In this document: one piece after another, positions 50,723 through 60,635 of the stretch | Numbering within the stretch: the first letter of the stretch is position 1 | Layout of the letters: every line of letters starts with the position of its first letter | From: a virus | IMG/VR virus record: IMGVR_UViG_3300005836_000029 | Span: 1 to 64,000 of that record | Strand: one strand, 5' to 3' | DNA: 64,000 nt | Translations under genes and position numbers: made by a program | The notes under the pieces: generated by a model | Database searches by the model: none | The model's input: the letters and a program-made list of their open reading frames with translations, nothing else | What the model was told of the DNA's origin: nothing

Positions 50723-51880
50723 GTGAAGACGCACGAACGAGTTGCCGCTCGCTACCGCCTTCTGCTCGCCATGAGCCTCGAAGAGGCGAAGGCTGTCCTC
50801 GGGTTTCCCCCTGGTTCGAGCCCGAGCGAGAACGAGGTCGAGAAGGCCCGGCGGCAGAAGGCCATCGAGAACCATCCGGACCGAGGCGGAGACCCGGACA
50901 AGATGGTCGAGGTCAACGTCGCCGCAGACGTCCTCGTGGGCAAACAACGGCCGACAGGAAGCCCGAGGCCCTACTCGAGGCCCGAGCCCCAAGGCACGCC
51001 GCCTCCCCCCGGAGGATGGTCGTACGAGCCCCCTCCGAAGCAGAAGGATGTCGAGGTCACCTTCGAGGAGGCCAAGAGCAAGGCGGGCATCCCGAGTGGC
51101 GTCAATTGGTGGTTCGTCACCGAGTCCCACAGCAGCGGCTACAGCGGGGACGAGTCCACACGACGGGCAACAGGCTACGTCGTCGTCGGAGAAACCGAGA
51201 ACGCCTGGGTCTTCGTGACCGTCGAGCACTTCTTCTCGGCGTACTACTACGTGGGGGGCGGACCGAAGTACGACACCTACCACATGGAGGTCATGAAGCT
51301 CCCGAAGCGGGGGAAGCCGGAGCCGGCCTTCCTCTACGGCGGCGTCATGAAGGCGTGGAAGAACTTCGAGTTCCTCGAGAAGAAGTTCAACTCGAAGATC
51401 AAGCCTCTGCCCGAGAGCTGGGTCTTCAGCGAGCGTTTCCCCTCATCCGGGTCCAGCACGACCATCAAGAAGCTCCTCGCCGACAAGGGCCTGCTTAGCG
51501 AGGAGCAGGCGGCGACCATCAAGACCTCGGTCGAGATGGAGCTCGAGACCTCGCTGGGCGAGAAGCCTGGGTTCGTTCCCGAGCCGACTGCACCCGGCCG
51601 TGAGCCCCGGGACTGGTACAAGATCACGCTCTGGATCAACGGTCGACCCCTCGTGCTTTCGCCCCAGGACACGAGGAAGTTCTTCACGGTCACGAACTAC
51701 GGGGCCACCAGCAAGATCCTCACCGTGGTGTTCGGGACCTACTGGCGTCACGGGGGCAAGAAGACCCTGACTCGGCTGCGGAAGGGCAAAGAGCTCCTCA
51801 CCTTGATGGGCGAGAAGCTTGGGGACCTGCCGCCCGGAGCCAAGGATGCTCTCCTCGCAACCGCCGCTCGGCTCAAGTGA
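50723..51880 (+). CDS. J-domain (DnaJ-like) protein with novel C-terminal region
   Basis: A 385-aa protein with a GTG start. Residues about 15-75 look like a short J-domain: 'SLEEAKAVLGFPPGSSPSEN', then 'KARRQKAIENHPDRGGDPDK' with the HPD triad at about residues 51-53. This triad stimulates Hsp70 ATPase, so the protein may recruit host DnaK. A Pro-rich linker (about 80-110) leads to a roughly 270-residue region with no recognised family ('WVFVTVEHFFSAYYYVGGG'). No zinc-finger or Gly/Phe region of full DnaJ is present. Its stop overlaps the next start (TGATG). Confidence 0.65.
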   Translation: MKTHERVAARYRLLLAMSLEEAKAVLGFPPGSSPSENEVEKARRQKAIENHPDRGGDPDKMVEVNVAADVLVGKQRPTGSPRPYSRPEPQGTPPPPGGWSYEPPPKQKDVEVTFEEAKSKAGIPSGVNWWFVTESHSSGYSGDESTRRATGYVVVGETENAWVFVTVEHFFSAYYYVGGGPKYDTYHMEVMKLPKRGKPEPAFLYGGVMKAWKNFEFLEKKFNSKIKPLPESWVFSERFPSSGSSTTIKKLLADKGLLSEEQAATIKTSVEMELETSLGEKPGFVPEPTAPGREPRDWYKITLWINGRPLVLSPQDTRKFFTVTNYGATSKILTVVFGTYWRHGGKKTLTRLRKGKELLTLMGEKLGDLPPGAKDALLATAARLK

Positions 51881-52533: not shown

Positions 52534-54318
52534 ATGCCGACCCGTAAGCCTCTGTCTGAGGCCCAAAAGAAGACCTACGCCAAGTTGAAGGAGGTCCGTG
52601 CTTCGACCACGGTCTCCCTCAAACCTACACCGCTTCTACGGAATCGGATCGTAGGTCTCGACGGAGAGGAACAGGACTTCGCCCTTCGCTACTATCAGGT
52701 CCAGGGCGTATTCCACATGCTCGCCTTGAACCGGATGGTCCTGGGCGACGACACGGGTCTGGGCAAGACCCTCGAGTCGATTGCGGCGCTCTGTTACCTG
52801 TGGGCCAAGGAACCCAACAACAGGGTCATCGTAGTTGCCCCGAAGAGCGCCATCCGGCAGTGGGCCTCCGAGATTCAGCGATTCTCTACAGGCTTGAAGG
52901 TCTTCCTGGCGAACGACGGGGTAGCCTTGAAAGGCGAATCGCCTGTCGATGGTCGGCGTAGGGTCTATGAGGCGTGGCTCAAGACACCTGCCTCGGAGCG
53001 GCCGGTCCTCATCTTGAACTACGCCTTGCTCGTTCGAGACTGGCATCACGGGGGATTCCAGCCGCCGAAGAAGGGCGGCAAGCTTTCGAAGGAGCCCGTA
53101 AGGCCAGGACTGCTCGACGGGATTATGCAGAGGGTCGGCCCGCAAGACCTCGTGGTCATCTTCGACGAGGCCACGGCCTTCAAGACACAGCGGACCAAGA
53201 CGTGGGAGGTCGCCCAGTTTCTCTCGGCTATGTCTCGGCGGGTCTACGGGCTTACGGCGACCCTCCTCAAGAACCACCTGATGGAGGGGTACTGCATCTA
53301 CAAGGTGGTCAAGCCCGACCTTTTCGGGACCAAGACGAAGTTCCTCGAAGACTACTGCGTCGTCCAGCATCAGATCGTCGGGCGCAAGCGCATCCCCATC
53401 GTGGTCAACTACAGGAACCTGGACGACTTCCGGGAGGTGATCGACCCCTTCTTTCTGGGCAGGAAGAAGCACATGGTTGCAAAGGAGCTCCCGACCCTGA
53501 CGACACGCGAGGTGTCCTTCGAGCTCAGTCCGGCGGAGGATGCAAAGTACGCCGAGGCTCTCAGCGGCGTCCTGGAACTAGGCGACGGCGAGGTCCGTGA
53601 GTTCGAAGAAACCAGGGCCCTCACGAGCTTGATCTACTGCCAGCAGGTCGTGAACTCCCTCGCGATGCTTCGCTTCAAGGAGGGCTCCGAGGTCAGTTCT
53701 TTCTCCGTCGACCTCGAGACTCTGGAGCGCAAGACCCACAAGATCGAGGCTCTCAGCACGAAGGAACAGGCTCTCGTCGACCTCCTCACCGGGGAGCTCG
53801 ATGGCGAGAAGGTCATCGTCTACACCCGCTTCGAGAGTATCGTCGGGCGTCTCCGGGAGATCCTGAGCCGTGAAGGGATCCTCAGTGTCCGCATCACGGG
53901 CAAGGAGAACGACAAGGCTCGGGCGGAGGCCCAGGCGGCCTTCCAAGACCTCAAAGGAGAGACCAAGGTCATCTTCATCACGGCCGCCGGAAGCGAAGCC
54001 ATCAACCTTCAGGCAGCGATGGCGATGGTCTTCTTCGACGCCCCGTGGTCGTACGGGGAGCTCCTTCAGCTTCTCGGTCGCATGATCCGGATCGGGTCGC
54101 CGAACGAGCGGGTCCTCGCCTTCCATCTCCTTGCCGAGCGCCCTGGCGTCCGCAAGGACCGCAAGACCATCGACCATCACGTGCTCACGCTTCTGCGTCG
54201 GAAGAAGGGCTTGATCGACAAGGTGCTCGGGGAGGCCGCCCTCGGGGCGCTCAAGTTCGAAAAGGCGCCCACGAAGCTCCAGGACCTCGTGAAATTGATG
54301 CAGTCGGAAGCGGTGTAG
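52534..54318 (+). CDS. SNF2/DEAD-like helicase (superfamily 2)
   Basis: A 594-aa protein with two RecA-like halves. The N-half has Walker A 'GDDTGLGKT' (residues 71-79), Walker B 'DEAT' (211-214) and 'LTATLLKN' (motif III region). The C-half has 'VIVYTRFESIVGRL', 'GSEAINLQ' (about 486) and 'LLQLLGRMIRIGSPNE' with the motif VI arginines. The pattern matches SNF2-family DNA translocases. It starts the replication block, 36 bases after the secreted-protein gene. Likely acts in replication, recombination or removal of bound proteins from phage DNA. Confidence 0.85.
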   Translation: MPTRKPLSEAQKKTYAKLKEVRASTTVSLKPTPLLRNRIVGLDGEEQDFALRYYQVQGVFHMLALNRMVLGDDTGLGKTLESIAALCYLWAKEPNNRVIVVAPKSAIRQWASEIQRFSTGLKVFLANDGVALKGESPVDGRRRVYEAWLKTPASERPVLILNYALLVRDWHHGGFQPPKKGGKLSKEPVRPGLLDGIMQRVGPQDLVVIFDEATAFKTQRTKTWEVAQFLSAMSRRVYGLTATLLKNHLMEGYCIYKVVKPDLFGTKTKFLEDYCVVQHQIVGRKRIPIVVNYRNLDDFREVIDPFFLGRKKHMVAKELPTLTTREVSFELSPAEDAKYAEALSGVLELGDGEVREFEETRALTSLIYCQQVVNSLAMLRFKEGSEVSSFSVDLETLERKTHKIEALSTKEQALVDLLTGELDGEKVIVYTRFESIVGRLREILSREGILSVRITGKENDKARAEAQAAFQDLKGETKVIFITAAGSEAINLQAAMAMVFFDAPWSYGELLQLLGRMIRIGSPNERVLAFHLLAERPGVRKDRKTIDHHVLTLLRRKKGLIDKVLGEAALGALKFEKAPTKLQDLVKLMQSEAV

Positions 54319-54327
54319 GAGGGGGAT

Positions 54328-55185
54328 GTGAGCGAACCTCCGATCTGCGCCAAATGCGGCAAAGCGCCCGTCGAGGGCTGCGAGGGCCGTGGCTACGTGC
54401 CCATCGGAGACGACGACAACACCGTCCAGACGTGTGTCAACATCTACCGGAAGCAGCTCGCCGCCCACCTGGGCCCCGAGTTCCAGGGCGTTCCGCACAC
54501 GAGCAAGACGCCCCTGATCAAGCTCAATCCGTCCGGAGGGCCGCCTCTGGTCGATCTCACGAGCAAGAACCTCATGATCCACTGCACGTGGGCAGGGTTC
54601 AAGCCGCACCTGAAGTACGCTCTAGCCGTGAAGGGGCTCAACTTCTACTGGCGGATCATCACGGACGAGCGCATCCGCAACGTGTTCGTCGGCTCCGAGT
54701 CCTACAAGGCCAGGTCGCTCAAGGATCGGGAGGCCGTCAGCACCTACAACAATCTCTCGCAGTTCGCGGGTGCCGACTGGGAACTCGTCATCATCAAGCT
54801 CGGCTACCTCGGCTACCAAAATCGGGCAGCAGCCGGGGCCTTGAAGGAGGTCTTGCTTCATCGGGCCTCCCTCAACAAGGCCACATGGATTCTCCAAGAT
54901 TCGAGCAAGAGCCGGGAGTGGATCCATTCCCGGAACGATGACGTGGAGGAGTACATCCGCGAGTACTACCGCGACATCCAAATCGAAGCGGCGCCGACGG
55001 ATTACGAGGACCCCGAGCCCGAAGAGGAGGATGTCGGAATCGTCGTCGACGACGACGAGCCCCCGAGTGACCCGGAGAAGTACATCGTCGAAGAAGAACC
55101 CGCTGAGACCGTTCCGACGCAGGAAGAAGGGCTACACATGCCGTGGGATGATGCAACCCCGAGCCGAAAAAAGAGGCGGTGGTGA
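54328..55185 (+). CDS. Degenerate DnaC-like helicase loader
   Basis: A 285-aa protein with a GTG start, ending inside the start of the DnaB-like gene. Residues 7-18 hold a zinc-finger-like Cys set (Cys7, Cys10, Cys18). Residues about 80-215 follow the helicase loader layout: 'SKNLMIHCTWAGFKPHL' where the P-loop should be, 'WRIITDERIRNVF', then 'LVIIKLGYLGYQNRAAAGAL' and 'LLHRASLNKATWIL'. The P-loop keeps Lys92 but has Phe before it and Pro after it, and Walker B has Lys157 in place of Asp. ATP hydrolysis is therefore doubtful. The tail is very acidic, then basic. It likely helps place the adjacent helicase. Confidence 0.65.
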   Translation: MSEPPICAKCGKAPVEGCEGRGYVPIGDDDNTVQTCVNIYRKQLAAHLGPEFQGVPHTSKTPLIKLNPSGGPPLVDLTSKNLMIHCTWAGFKPHLKYALAVKGLNFYWRIITDERIRNVFVGSESYKARSLKDREAVSTYNNLSQFAGADWELVIIKLGYLGYQNRAAAGALKEVLLHRASLNKATWILQDSSKSREWIHSRNDDVEEYIREYYRDIQIEAAPTDYEDPEPEEEDVGIVVDDDEPPSDPEKYIVEEEPAETVPTQEEGLHMPWDDATPSRKKRRW

Positions 55186-56660
55186 GGCGCCTTCTCCGAA
55201 ACGTCATCGATTTCCAGGACGGCAAGGCTTCCAAGGAGGCCATGAACGTCAACTACCAGCGTCTTCAGGCGTCGACGATCGAATGGTCTCAGCCCGTCGA
55301 CGAGCGGATCTTCAAGTTCATCCGGGAGTTCTTCAACAACAACTTCGAGCTCCCGACGGCTCGAACGATCGAGGACTTCTTCACCCGCTCCGACGACATC
55401 GAGGTCACGGAGCGGCTCAAGGACATCCAGGCTGCCGAGACCTACGTCCACAAGAACTACGCCCACCTTCTCGGTCAGCTCCTCGACGACCAGAACCGCA
55501 TCAAGATGCGGGCTATCCTCAAGGACGCCGAAGAGATCGTAACCAAGGGTCGGATCATCCAGGAGGGCCGGGAGAAGATCAAGCTCCAGGGGGTCAAGGA
55601 TGCCCTCATCTACGTCAGCCGGAATGCCCACGGCCTCATGCCCGTGGAAGTCCATGCTCGGACGAACGGCGACCTTCGGGAAGACACGAACGAGGCGTGG
55701 CAGGAGTACCAGATTGCCAAGAGAGAACGCGGCAATGTCTGGGGAGCCTTCGTCGGGATCAACGAGATCGACAAGGTGTGCCACGGCTGCAAGCGTGGGG
55801 AACTATGGATCCACGCTGCGTTTGTCGGCGAGCTGAAGACGACGTTCGCCCTCAACTGGTGCTACAACCTCGTCACTCGGTACCGCACGAACGTCTTCTA
55901 CGTCTCGCTGGAGGTTCCGTACACGCAGATCCGCCGCAACATCTACGCCATCCATTCGGCGAACAAGAAGTGGGCTGCCCAAGGAAAGAAGCCCCTCGAC
56001 TACCGGCAGATCCGTGACGGGGAACTGACCCCCGAAGAGGAACCCTTCTACCAAGAGGTCCTCGACGACTTCCACAACAACCCCGAGTACTGCCGCTTCG
56101 AGGTCTGGGCCCCCGAGCACGATGTCACCATTGACGACATCCGGGTCCAAGCCGAGATGGCCCACAAGCAGATGGACGTGGGGTTCATCGTCATCGACCA
56201 CGGGGGCCTCGTGGAGCCGACGAAGAAGAACAAGGACTTCACGATCGAGCTCAACTCGGTGCTCCGAGCTGCCAAGAAGACGCTCGCCTTGCACTTCAAC
56301 GGGGGCGAAGGCGTGCCGGTGCTCATGCTCTTCCAGCTCAATCGCCAGGGCAAGGACGAGGCCGACAAGAACGAGGGACGCTACAAGATCAAAGCCCTCT
56401 CCTACGCAAACGAAGCCGAGAAGAGCGCCGACTACATCACGACGACGTACTTGAACGACGGCCATCGTGAGGCTGGGACCACGCTCTTCTGCAATCTCAA
56501 GAACCGCGACAACCCCTTGTTCAACACCTTCACGGCGACCGTCGACTTCAAGTGCCGGCGCATCCTGAACTTCGACCCCACCATCAGTCGTGTGGCGGGC
56601 ATGCGCATCGATACGCCCGAAGGCACCGAGGCTCTGCTCCAGGGCTTGGATAACGTCTGA
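55179..56660 (+). CDS. DnaB-like replicative helicase
   Basis: A 493-aa protein. An N-terminal helical domain precedes a RecA-like core: 'GELWIHAAFVGELKTTFALN' at the Walker A site (Lys220; Leu replaces the usual Gly before it), 'VFYVSLEVPYTQIRRN', Walker B 'FIVIDHGGLV' (Asp340) and 'LMLFQLNRQGKDEA'. The order and spacing match DnaB-type hexameric helicases, which unwind the fork 5' to 3'. Two in-frame GTG codons (55179, 55182) can be the start; both overlap the loader gene's end. It is coupled to the loader upstream and the primase zinc domain downstream. Confidence 0.85.
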   Translation: MVRRLLRNVIDFQDGKASKEAMNVNYQRLQASTIEWSQPVDERIFKFIREFFNNNFELPTARTIEDFFTRSDDIEVTERLKDIQAAETYVHKNYAHLLGQLLDDQNRIKMRAILKDAEEIVTKGRIIQEGREKIKLQGVKDALIYVSRNAHGLMPVEVHARTNGDLREDTNEAWQEYQIAKRERGNVWGAFVGINEIDKVCHGCKRGELWIHAAFVGELKTTFALNWCYNLVTRYRTNVFYVSLEVPYTQIRRNIYAIHSANKKWAAQGKKPLDYRQIRDGELTPEEEPFYQEVLDDFHNNPEYCRFEVWAPEHDVTIDDIRVQAEMAHKQMDVGFIVIDHGGLVEPTKKNKDFTIELNSVLRAAKKTLALHFNGGEGVPVLMLFQLNRQGKDEADKNEGRYKIKALSYANEAEKSADYITTTYLNDGHREAGTTLFCNLKNRDNPLFNTFTATVDFKCRRILNFDPTISRVAGMRIDTPEGTEALLQGLDNV

Positions 56661-57322
56661 TGGCCGACAACATCAAGAAGGCGCAGTCCGAGAGCGTCCT
56701 CGAGCAGACTCGACGGGCGTGGGTGCGGACTCGCATCGAGCAGATCCACCGAATCGTTTCTGCTCACGATGTCCTTCAACGGCGAGGGGGCATTGACTTC
56801 AAGAGCACTTCGGGGCGTGAAGAGCAGTTCTCCTGTCCCTTCCACGGGAAGGACACCAAGCCGTCGGCTCGCATCTACCCCGAGAGCGCCAGGAGCCCGA
56901 GTCATGCTTGGTGCTTCGTCTGCCAGGAACGCTGGGACGCCATCGCTCTCTGGCGGAAGTTCAACGGAGACGGGGACGACGTACCCTTCACGCGGACCCT
57001 CACCCAGATGGAACAGGCGTACGGCATCACCAAGCCGGCCATGCCGCAAGAGCTCTGGGGAGCTGGAGAGGAGTCCGCCGTCTCCCCCGACCTCCTCGCC
57101 TTCGATTCCCTCTACGATGTCTGCGAGAACCGCCTGAAGTTTGCCCGGCCGATCTACTACAAGCTTGGTGACATGACGGGATACCTCGCGGCAAGCTGCA
57201 TCCTCGACAAGATGAGGCACCGGGTCGACAAGAGGCAGGTGAGCCCCGAGAAGGGCTCCGAGGTCCTCAGGCAGCTCTTGGGTAAAATTGGGGGGAAAGT
57301 CCAGGCATGTCCCGACGCGTGA
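56660..57322 (+). CDS. Free-standing primase zinc-binding (CHC2-like) protein
   Basis: A 220-aa protein whose ATG overlaps the helicase stop. Residues 59-88 are a CHC2-type zinc motif: 'CPFHGKDTKPSARIYP' (Cys59, His62) and 'WCFVCQERWDAI' (Cys85, Cys88). This domain reads the template start site in DnaG-type primases. No TOPRIM or archaeo-eukaryotic primase catalytic motif follows; the C-terminal 120 residues are helical and unassigned. Either the catalytic subunit lies outside the window, or the host enzyme is used. Direct coupling to the helicase suits a helicase-primase complex. Confidence 0.75.
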   Translation: MADNIKKAQSESVLEQTRRAWVRTRIEQIHRIVSAHDVLQRRGGIDFKSTSGREEQFSCPFHGKDTKPSARIYPESARSPSHAWCFVCQERWDAIALWRKFNGDGDDVPFTRTLTQMEQAYGITKPAMPQELWGAGEESAVSPDLLAFDSLYDVCENRLKFARPIYYKLGDMTGYLAASCILDKMRHRVDKRQVSPEKGSEVLRQLLGKIGGKVQACPDA

Positions 57323-57738
57323 AGCTCCCTACCTTGGAAATGGGGGAGGTCACCTTGCTGGTCATGTGGGAAAAGGGGGGCAAATGGGAGGCAACCATCG
57401 AGCCCCTCCGAGGGACACGGGTGGGGGACCAAATCAGCATCATCGCTCAGGGGGCTCTCACCCATGCCCTCCACGGCCTCTCACGGCCTCTTGTCGACGC
57501 CTTGGGGATTCCTCCAGCCGGAGCCCTCAGGAAGTTGCCCGAAGCCACCAAACAGTGCTCCAAGCGCCGCAATTGCCCGTTCTACCAGAAGGCCCACTGT
57601 CACACAGGAGCGAAGCAGATTTCCTGGTGCTTCGTGCCCGGCGGATTTTCGGATGAGGCCGGAGTAGCCGCTGCATCGCAAGTCATCGCCGAATGGCGCC
57701 AGGGGGTGTATGTCGTCGTGGTCAAGGAGGACTCTTAA
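57307..57738 (+). CDS. Small Cys-cluster protein
   Basis: A 143-aa protein whose ATG overlaps the end of the zinc-domain gene and whose stop overlaps the polymerase ATG (TAATG), so it is part of the replication operon. Residues about 79-105 contain four cysteines spaced C-x5-C-x7-C-x9-C ('CSKRRNCPFYQKAHC'), which could bind zinc or an iron-sulphur cluster. The N-terminus is beta-like ('EVTLLVMWEKGGKWEATIE'). No known family; a primase- or polymerase-linked accessory role is suggested by position. Confidence 0.5.
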   Translation: MSRRVKLPTLEMGEVTLLVMWEKGGKWEATIEPLRGTRVGDQISIIAQGALTHALHGLSRPLVDALGIPPAGALRKLPEATKQCSKRRNCPFYQKAHCHTGAKQISWCFVPGGFSDEAGVAAASQVIAEWRQGVYVVVVKEDS

Positions 57739-60635
57739 TGCCGTCGCCTGAAGAGGAGGAGACCAACTGGGAAGAGGAATTGCTCAACAACATCCCAGTT
57801 GCGACTCCTACGCCGGAGCCTGCCAGTGCCGCTCCGACTCCGACTCCAGCCCGAGCACGACCGGCCATCTTCGACGACGATGACGCCGAAGATCCCGCTT
57901 CGTATTTGTCCTCGTCGGGCCTCCAGACGCAAACCCAGGTCGACGCCAACAATCGGAACCTCTTCAAGCCGTGGATGCAGTTCCACAAGTTCACCCTCGT
58001 CAAGACCGTCGACGAGGTGAAGAAGATCGTCGACGAGGCGCTTTTGCACGGTCGCTGCGCCCTCGACCTCGAGACGGAGGGCTTCGACAACCGCATCGAC
58101 TACGACGCCGACGGGAAGCCCTCTACGAAGCACAAGATCGTCGGCTTCTGCATCGGATTGAAGGGGGCGGGCTACTACATCCCGGTTCGACACTCGTTCG
58201 ACCGAACGTATGGCCAGGCCGACCCCAACGTCCCGGTTCAAGGCGTCGAGGCGGAGATCCGACGACTTTGCCTCGCATCCCAGCCCATCTTGACGGAAGA
58301 GGGCCTGGCCGAGGACCCCTACGCTTCGATGAAGTGGGAGGTCCCTCCCAGGATCATCCTGTACTTCTGGAATGCGCTGTTCGATCAGGAGTTTCTCTAC
58401 CCGATCACGGGCATCGACTTCTGGCATCCCGCGAGCTTCGAGGACGGAATGCTCGCGGCCTACACGACCTACACGGACGACGCCATCGGTCTCAAGGCCA
58501 AGGCGTTCGAGAAGCTATCCATTGCCGACCCCGATGTGAAGGACGGTGAAGGAAAACCGGTCGTCTACAACTACGAGATGATCGAGTTCGAGGAGCTCTT
58601 CCCCCCGAACATCAAGCGGGCGGATCGGAAGATCGCCGACGTGTATCCAGAGGAAGGCTCGGACATCGTTCGCTACGGCTGCTCGGATGGCATCTGCACC
58701 GAGCTCCTGTGCGAGACGAAGAAGGTCCAGTGGGAGTTCGCCAAGGAACCCGCCAGCTACACCTACAAGGAGGTCGTCAGCGACCCTACCAAGAAGCACA
58801 GCTTCACCTACAAACTCGAGCGCCAGACGGCCCAAGCTGTGCGTGTCCTGGAGCGGTCCCGGGCAAAAATCGACAAGGACGAGCTGAAACTGCTCCTCGA
58901 CGAAGCTCAGAACGAGCTCGAGTCCTACGAGGAGAAAATCAAGAAGATCGCAGCCTCCAAGGGTTTTCACGGGTTCAACCCCGGCTCGCCGGAGCAGCTC
59001 TCCACCTTCCTCTTCGAGAAACAGGGTCTCGACATCAACCCGAAGCCGAAGAAGAACGAGGCAAGCGGGCAGTACAAGACGGACGCTGCGACTCTCGAGC
59101 AGATGTACGAGGCCAACCCTGACATCGAGGTGCTCGACTGGGTGGTGAAGTACCGGCAGATCGACAAGATCATCGGCACGTACCTCACGAACCTCATCGC
59201 GAACTGCGACGAGAACGAGTGCCTTCGGTTCAAGTTCCTCCAGACGGGAGCTGCCACCGGACGCTTCACGGCGCCCTCGGGGGAGGTGGAGCACGGCTTC
59301 AGTGGCATCCCCATCCAGGGCATCCCCGCCAGGAGCGACCCGAAGAAGCCGAAGGTCGCCCACTCGCTTCGCCGGATGTTCGTAGCTCGTCCCGGCTACA
59401 CCCTCGTGAAGATCGACTACGCCGGGCAGGAACTACGCATCGTCACGAACCTCTCGAGGGAGCCCCTCTGGCTGAACGAGTTCAAGGCCGCAGCAGCTCA
59501 AGGCAAAGAGGCGGATCTTCACACGCTCACGGCCCAAGCCTTCTTCGGCCCGCACATCACGAAGGCCAACAAGGTCGAACGGAACATGGGCAAGATCGCG
59601 AACTTCTCGCTCATCTACGGCGGCGGGGTGCAAGCGATTCAGCGGGCGACGAAGTGCGACAAGGTGGAGGCATCCCGACGCAAAGCGAACTTCGACAAGA
59701 GCGTCCCGACCTTCGCCAAGTGGGTGGCGAAACAGCATGCGGACGTGAAGAGGGACCTTGGAGTCTCGACGGCCTTCCAGCGCTTCATTGCGATTCCGGA
59801 TGCCAACATCAAGCCCGGCCAGGTCATCCGTGGCCAGGCGATCGATGAGCAGGAGGCCCGTCGGATTCGAGCCGGTTGCGAGAGGAAGAGTACGAACTAC
59901 CCGATCCAGGGGAGTGGTGCCGACATCCTCAAGATCAGCCTGGTGAAGCTCGCGAAGGACCTCGGGAGGAGGGGCTGGCTCAGGAACGGGGGCGACGACA
60001 GCGTACGCATGATCATGACGGTCCACGACGAGATCGTCTTCGAGATCCGGCATGAGCGCCTGACGACCGCCCTGCCCGAGATCATCCGCATCATGGAATC
60101 TCCGAGCGCCCTCTGTCACTGGGAAATCCCGCTCGTCGTCGAGCCCCTCATCGGCCTGAACTGGGAGGCCAAGTACGACTGGCTCGAGATCATGCACGGC
60201 GAGGCTCCGGTGCCGGACTGGCTCGTCGACTTCGTGAAGCCGGGCGTCGATGTGGCCGTGCACACCCCGGAGCCCTCAGCTCCAGCCGCAACGGCTCCTG
60301 CCCAAACTCCGACGGCCTCCCCAGCTCCTTCGAAATCTGCGAAACCTTCGAGTTTGACGCCGAGCGTCAAAGCTGCAAAGGTCGCCACCTTCCTCCTGCC
60401 GAAGGACTTCCTCACGAGGGAGTCGATTCGCCTCGTGATGATGGCCATTTCCGGGTCTGTTCCCATCGGAGACCAGCCCCGTGAAGGGGTCGTTCGGCTC
60501 CAGGTCAAGGACCAGCAGGGCAACGTTCTGATCGACCCTAAGCTCGGGATCCATGTCTTTCCCGAGCGGTTTTCTCGGGAACTGCACGATCGGAACCTCG
60601 GAGGCAACGGCTGGGAGATCGAGGAAAATACCTAA
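57738..60635 (+). CDS. Family A DNA polymerase with proofreading domain and extra C-terminal domain
   Basis: A 965-aa protein; I chose ATG 57738, with GGAGG upstream, overlapping the previous stop. After an acidic, Pro-rich N-terminus comes a 3'-5' exonuclease with Exo I 'ALDLETEGFD', Exo II 'WNALFDQEFL' and Exo III 'RYGCSDG', all intact. The polymerase has motif A 'KIDYAGQELRI' (Asp560), motif B Arg615, Lys619, Phe623 and Tyr627 ('NMGKIANFSLIYGGG'), and motif C 'MTVHDEIVF' (Asp764). Residues about 835-890 are Pro/Ala linker, then about 75 residues of an extra domain of unknown role. This is the phage replicative polymerase. Confidence 0.93.
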   Translation: MPSPEEEETNWEEELLNNIPVATPTPEPASAAPTPTPARARPAIFDDDDAEDPASYLSSSGLQTQTQVDANNRNLFKPWMQFHKFTLVKTVDEVKKIVDEALLHGRCALDLETEGFDNRIDYDADGKPSTKHKIVGFCIGLKGAGYYIPVRHSFDRTYGQADPNVPVQGVEAEIRRLCLASQPILTEEGLAEDPYASMKWEVPPRIILYFWNALFDQEFLYPITGIDFWHPASFEDGMLAAYTTYTDDAIGLKAKAFEKLSIADPDVKDGEGKPVVYNYEMIEFEELFPPNIKRADRKIADVYPEEGSDIVRYGCSDGICTELLCETKKVQWEFAKEPASYTYKEVVSDPTKKHSFTYKLERQTAQAVRVLERSRAKIDKDELKLLLDEAQNELESYEEKIKKIAASKGFHGFNPGSPEQLSTFLFEKQGLDINPKPKKNEASGQYKTDAATLEQMYEANPDIEVLDWVVKYRQIDKIIGTYLTNLIANCDENECLRFKFLQTGAATGRFTAPSGEVEHGFSGIPIQGIPARSDPKKPKVAHSLRRMFVARPGYTLVKIDYAGQELRIVTNLSREPLWLNEFKAAAAQGKEADLHTLTAQAFFGPHITKANKVERNMGKIANFSLIYGGGVQAIQRATKCDKVEASRRKANFDKSVPTFAKWVAKQHADVKRDLGVSTAFQRFIAIPDANIKPGQVIRGQAIDEQEARRIRAGCERKSTNYPIQGSGADILKISLVKLAKDLGRRGWLRNGGDDSVRMIMTVHDEIVFEIRHERLTTALPEIIRIMESPSALCHWEIPLVVEPLIGLNWEAKYDWLEIMHGEAPVPDWLVDFVKPGVDVAVHTPEPSAPAATAPAQTPTASPAPSKSAKPSSLTPSVKAAKVATFLLPKDFLTRESIRLVMMAISGSVPIGDQPREGVVRLQVKDQQGNVLIDPKLGIHVFPERFSRELHDRNLGGNGWEIEENT

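Follow-up and report, generated by a model that had tools for sequence, protein, structure and literature searches.

The locus studied here raises the question of how a phage helicase loader and the replicative helicase encoded next to it could work together when the nucleotide-binding motifs of both depart from the canonical pattern. An earlier note on this DNA described a DnaC-like loader and a DnaB-like helicase with altered P-loops and suggested that the two had evolved together. We analyzed a window of 64,000 nucleotides, which is part of a 66,418-base IMG/VR virus record (IMGVR_UViG_3300005836_000029). The observation itself is confirmed, in that all of the named residues are present (F91, K92, P93 and K157 in the loader; L219, K220-T221-T222 and D340 in the helicase) and both reading frames are open, while the interpretation is partly supported. 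The best explanation, to which we assign a probability of about 0.7 as a whole, is that the two genes sit among the replication genes of a large tailed phage and encode a helicase that is active, with a P-loop of non-canonical form, and an ATP-independent loader of the DnaC type. It is based on fold and sequence relationship, the fixed variant residues, the kept catalytic residues and the linkage of the genes, from which we infer the activity of the helicase, the failure of its neighbor to bind nucleotide and the loading function.

The Replication Block and Its Relatives

Positions 52534-60635 of the window hold, in this order, an SNF2 helicase, the loader, the DnaB-type helicase, a short CHC2 primase-type protein, a small ORF and a family A DNA polymerase:

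52534..54318, + strand: SNF2-type helicase, which opens the replication block (Pfam SNF2-rel_dom, E 9e-24; Helicase_C, E 7e-17)
54328..55185, + strand: putative helicase loader of 285 aa, a degenerate (pseudo-)AAA+ protein (predicted fold of DnaA/DnaC/IstB; related by profile to canonical DnaC loaders of phages)
55179..56660, + strand: DnaB-family replicative helicase, 493 aa (Pfam DnaB_C; phrog_19; PDB profile match)
56660..57322, + strand: short CHC2 zinc-finger primase-type protein (phrog_47 DNA primase, E 9.9e-7; Pfam Zn_ribbon_DnaG at 21.5 bits, slightly below the cut-off of 24.9)
57741..60635, + strand: family A DNA polymerase (Pfam DNA_pol_A, E 3.7e-71)

The family match of the short primase-type protein is confined to its zinc-finger part, and no TOPRIM domain was found within it. 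Outside the block, the ORF at 50723-51880 has an N-terminus that looks J-domain-like by eye (HPD in ENHPDRGGDPDKM) and, after it, a long stretch of unknown nature.

Our family sample consisted of 61 loci, which gave 48 distinct contigs once 13 contigs found twice had been dropped. The order of the block is the same around the helicase in most of them, with SNF2 in 45 of the 48, the loader detected by blastp in 45, and the primase and the polymerase in 41 each. When profile searches are included, a loader homologue lies immediately upstream of the helicase in 46/48 contigs (the loader of L047 was detected by profile only and missed by blastp); the two contigs that have none there, L030 and L035, are both short and start at the helicase. 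The clade consists mostly of large uncultured phages, with contigs that reach 529 kb, and its sole GenBank relative is LR745208, a 485 kb uncultured phage, which was also the only match when two loaders were used as tblastn queries against 50,697 phage records. A scan of genome contigs yielded a single MAG contig carrying both the helicase and the pseudo-loader (L080, 33 kb). The gene order is swapped there (L080:4899-7116), so that the loader follows the helicase; the MAG was binned as a deltaproteobacterium, a bin that does not by itself assign a host.

The Loader Has an AAA+ Relationship but No P-Loop

Three parts of the loader bear on whether it could use ATP:

54340..54447, + strand: Zn-ribbon-like N-terminal segment, residues 5-40, with C7, C18 and C36 invariant in the alignment; predicted to bind metal
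54571..54609, + strand: position expected of a Walker A loop, residues 82-94, at which a strand passes directly into a helix; H94 invariant (DSSP of the model; column counts)
54784..54804, + strand: Walker-B-like strand, residues 153-159, with a basic residue at 157 replacing Asp (column counts, 47 homologues)

The N-terminal segment contains at least four Cys in all 47 rows, although the rows run from stop to stop and some of these counts take in residues that precede the start. Neither a Walker A motif of the form [G/A]xxxxGK[S/T] nor a Walker B motif of the form hhhhD[D/E/N] occurs in any of the 47 homologues. Column 157 is never acidic (Arg 35, Lys 5, Gln 2, hydrophobic 5), and column 92 holds Lys in 6 of the 47 and Leu in 19. 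By comparison, H94 and R179 are invariant throughout (47/47), and R179 aligns with an Arg that eight canonical phage loaders share without exception.

The earlier note had taken Lys92 for a retained P-loop lysine. We rejected this assignment because the column is not conserved and the residue lies inside a helix. In the AlphaFold2 model of the loader (37 sequences, pLDDT 82.7, pTM 0.72), DSSP ends the strand at residue 86 and starts the helix at 88, which leaves the modeled protein without a phosphate-binding loop. The loss of the ATP motifs stands, both Walker motifs being absent from all 47 homologues, but the description of an altered P-loop does not, as there is no P-loop left to be altered. 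Very probably, the protein is unable to bind or hydrolyze ATP in the manner of AAA+ proteins.

Tracing the origin of the loader required structure and profiles. Searches against Pfam, PHROGs, NCBIfam, PADLOC and PDB sequences gave no usable family, only scattered weak matches to unrelated families, each reaching one or two members, and the loader used alone as a single-sequence query against viral contigs found no relative; its relatives were reached via the helicase. Structural comparison of the model (Foldseek, VIA-align) matched DnaA domain III, DnaC, IstB and DnaI, with VIA Z-scores of 10.7 for DnaA (8btg), 9.6 for DnaC (3ec2), 9.5 for E. coli DnaC (6qem) and 9.0 for DnaI (2w58), which places the predicted core in the initiator/loader group of AAA+ folds; the Foldseek TM-scores were modest (0.22-0.38 on the query). 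Its best viral structural match was gp225 of phage G (E 2.4e-7), a canonical protein with G-x-x-G-x-G-K-S and L-I-V-D-N encoded directly before a G-K-S DnaB. Profile comparison by HHalign with eight canonical phage loaders gave a probability of 95.1 (E 3.4e-8) over 202 columns that include the Zn-ribbon, while the negative control, the loader against the helicase profile, gave 0.4 (E 0.16). The AAA+ fold, without which the earlier reading of the loader would have had no footing, was thus recovered by Foldseek, VIA-align and HHalign alike. Since Walker A and Walker B are found in 0/47 homologues, the protein is best regarded as a pseudo-AAA+ descendant rather than as an ATP-dependent DnaC. As a pseudo-AAA+ protein it would still serve as a loader, its link to the helicase being known from the adjacency of the genes.

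We also considered a canonical loader encoded elsewhere in these genomes and rejected it, if not with full closure: PF01695 matched in 16 of 22 records, with 2 above the cut-off, and nearly all of the matches lie in ORFs of 403-1180 aa and cover 22-54 profile positions around a P-loop, with one more covering 104 positions and falling below the cut-off. ClpX-like proteins were seen at L078:1177-2460 (Pfam) and, by eye, at L079:508-1962 on the - strand, and the weak IstB matches in other records may be these same ClpX-like proteins.

The absence of both ATP motifs and of any family library match, together with a long, acidic C-terminal tail of low confidence (mean pLDDT <62 in blocks from residue 221), could instead indicate a replisome adaptor or single-stranded DNA-binding protein made from an old loader. 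We consider this unlikely, as the protein matches phage G gp225, and the loaders annotated as DnaC-like in Pupper, E3, Sebata and Finch, in both gene position and Zn-ribbon/AAA+ layout, and we continue to treat it as a DnaC-type loader that would act without ATP.

The Helicase P-Loop and the Residue after Walker B

Membership of the helicase in the DnaB family is supported by Pfam DnaB_C (63.4 bits against a curated cut-off of 27, E 2.8e-17), by phrog_19 (E 5.7e-31) and by a profile match to the solved DnaB 2vye (E 4.8e-18). Its relevant sites are as follows:

55815..55841, + strand: variant Walker A, residues 213-221, A-A-F-V-G-E-L-K-T; Leu219 codon at 55833-55835 (alignment)
55911..55913, + strand: catalytic Glu245 of the S-L-E motif, kept (alignment)
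56196..56201, + strand: Walker B Asp340 followed by the unusual His341 (His in 39/41 family rows)
56334..56336, + strand: Gln386 (motif H3), kept (alignment)
56499..56507, + strand: K441-N-R443, KxR finger motif, kept (alignment; role of KxR as given in PMC9599734)

The P-loop sequence A-F-V-G-E-L-K-T does not match the canonical [G/A]xxxxGK[T/S]; despite this, the domain score and the remaining motifs mark the helicase as a variant derived from DnaB, not as a canonical member. The register of the P-loop is unambiguous: when the family profile is aligned to BstDnaB by hmmsearch, the KT residues of the two P-loops coincide, and in a multiple alignment that includes six GK helicases L219 falls on the Gly column. 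A better alignment, which the earlier note thought might restore canonical residues, leaves Leu219 on that column.

The substitution of Gly immediately before Lys220 (position K-1) is clade-wide. Of the 48 distinct contigs, 42 carry Leu and 5 carry Met at K-1, 47/48 in all, and L043 alone has Gly. The window and L080 are two further Leu or Met cases; Leu or Met at K-1 is fixed in the clade. The family pattern is A-x3-G-x-[L/M]-K-[T/S], with a Gly usually at K-3. In contrast, K-1 is Gly in 16/16 control phage DnaB proteins, comprising six near relatives (Magritte, Pupper, phage G, Finch, Sebata and E3) and ten chosen from two tblastn listings. According to PMC9599734, the [G/A]xxxxGK[T/S] motif, including this Gly, is almost universally conserved, and the Gly serves in backbone bending and phosphate contact.

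The remaining catalytic residues do not share this divergence. Lys220, Thr/Ser221, Glu245, Asp340 and Gln386 are retained in 41/41 family rows; K-x-R is intact in 40/41, the exception being L039. The residue following the Walker B Asp (D+1) is His in 39 of the 41 distinct family rows, Gln in one (L036, which combines it with Leu at K-1) and Tyr in one (L043), whereas of the 15 controls in which it was readable 13 have Tyr or Gln and 2 have His. In these rows, the change that tracks the P-loop Leu is one inside the helicase, the D+1 His, although this His is not restricted to Leu-type loops, since it stands beside a normal G-K in the 2 controls just mentioned. The Tyr at D+1 of Vibrio cholerae DnaB is listed among the residues near the catalytic water in PMC9599734; as that source also puts the K-1 Gly at the phosphates, the two changed sites of the helicase could face the same chemistry.

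The exceptional member, L043, has a helicase (L043:4992-6482) with P-S-H-G-K-T and I-D-Y, that is, a canonical G-K-T and a Tyr at D+1, encoded beside a loader as degenerate as those of the rest of the family. In an IQ-TREE phylogeny of 44 rows, it is nested in a 100/100 group of seven Leu-type helicases; the trait columns were kept, which works against nesting, and the outgroup branches are very long, so we used the nesting alone. L043 as the ancestral state was rejected on account of this position. The simplest account of the aligned sequences would be that the P-loop of L043 reverted naturally or was replaced by gene conversion, with a His to Tyr change alongside. Because K-3, K-2 and K-1 of L043 are all unlike those of its sisters, point reversion and conversion by a different DnaB are equally possible.

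These findings bear on the suggestion that loader decay and helicase P-loop change are a coevolved, mutually dependent pair. Both traits are confined to the same clade, and LR745208, the sole loader match in the phage records searched, also has Leu at K-1. However, the traits have one shared origin, which puts a link between pseudo-loader and Leu P-loop beyond statistical test, and L043 uncouples them by placing a G-K-T helicase beside a still-degenerate loader. Mutual dependence of the two proteins is accordingly about as improbable as the adaptor reading above, and the proposal that they evolved together is not borne out.

Less probable still is that the helicase is a degenerate, non-hydrolyzing DnaB paralogue with a structural or regulatory role, host DnaB doing the unwinding. 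The near-universal conservation of the K-1 Gly (PMC9599734) speaks for such a loss of function, but the retention of all other catalytic residues across the 41-row family is unlike decay, the gene sits among loader, primase and polymerase genes, and the full canonical loop of L043 implies a site that is still functional as a P-loop in that member. Furthermore, no second DnaB was seen, as 21/21 records, including those of 411-529 kb, have a single DnaB_C ORF (PF03796; in two records one ORF in two pieces); this is strong but not final evidence that the clade helicase is the only DnaB in those records, which may be incomplete. A sequencing or alignment artefact is refuted by the agreement of dozens of independent contigs and by the normal G-x-G-K-T of the neighboring SNF2 protein.

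Proposed Mechanism and Comparison with Known Systems

We therefore return to an active helicase paired with an ATP-independent loader. The helicase would be a DnaB-type hexameric ATPase, predicted to be active, in which the last Gly of the Walker A loop has been exchanged for a large hydrophobic residue, usually with a Gly at K-3, to give the family pattern described above. The His at D+1, in place of the usual Tyr or Gln, probably helps to set the nucleotide and the catalytic water in a reshaped pocket; this pocket is not visible in our structure model of the helicase, which was built from 9 sequences and is too poor to use (pLDDT 64). The DnaC-type loader, which still has a Zn-ribbon and an AAA+ core fold but no longer a phosphate-binding loop or a Walker B acid, would bind the helicase ring and crack it without ATP, leaving ATP control to the helicase. 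More tentatively, and at somewhat less than even odds, the ATP switch of helicase loading may have moved out of the dead AAA+ loader, with the job of the P-loop Gly shared in the new loop by the K-3 Gly and the His beside the Walker B Asp. If so, L043 would be a natural double revertant that shows the coupling of the two helicase sites.

With other DnaB/SF4 helicases (BstDnaB and those of the Microbacterium phage Magritte, the Gordonia phage Pupper and phage G), the clade shares the fold family, the catalytic Glu, the Walker B Asp, the H3 Gln and KxR, and it differs in Leu/Met rather than Gly at K-1 and in mostly His rather than Tyr/Gln at D+1. The gene order loader-helicase-primase is common to Pupper and E3, and to phage G with small ORFs between. 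With phage DnaC/DnaI-type loaders (Pupper gp146, phage G gp225), the clade protein shares the Zn-ribbon CxxC...CxC, the predicted AAA+ initiator-type core and the site before the helicase gene, but it is without a Walker A loop and its Walker B acid is mostly Arg/Lys. Lambda P is an ATP-independent loader, and the folds of DciA and lambda P are unrelated to that of the clade loader. Their working mode, with no loader ATPase, may nevertheless be like that expected of the clade protein, which is an AAA+ descendant; the class of DciA loaders is described as ATP-independent in PMC8213410, and it is from this that we infer ATP-independent binding of the ring.

Jumbo phages of the phiKZ group have a divergent DnaB with a modified Walker B that is thought to be active (PMC7824862), and are thus similar in having a changed nucleotide motif. 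The clade does not belong to the phiKZ type, which combines the modified Walker B with a family B polymerase; here K-1 of Walker A is changed, the Walker B Asp is kept and the polymerase is of family A. The titles and abstract openings surveyed, from open-access literature, contained no report of a DnaB with Leu or Met at K-1 or of a P-loop-less DnaC-type phage loader, and such reports may exist elsewhere. Considering that the K-1 Gly is among the most conserved residues of P-loop ATPases (PMC9599734), a whole clade of replicative helicases in which it is replaced, together with one natural revertant, offers a direct test of the role of this Gly. The pseudo-AAA+ loader, in turn, raises the question of whether a DnaC-type mechanism requires any ATP turnover by the loader.

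Inteins at the P-Loop

Six helicases of the clade (L001, L013, L014, L040, L046 and L059) carry inteins of 173-438 residues exactly between K220 and T/S221, the one in L040 being only 173 residues long. An intein inserted in the P-loop of DnaB is already known as mycobacterial site b (PMC6195587); the position in the clade matches that site and differs in that it lies within an L-K|T loop. Insertion at the K|T junction points to the L-K-T sequence as a conserved target. A second site, after a Y-A-N-x stretch near residue 413, is occupied in L012, L014, L034, L056 and L059, so that L014 and L059 have inteins at both sites, and probably corresponds to site a (H4) of mycobacterial DnaB.
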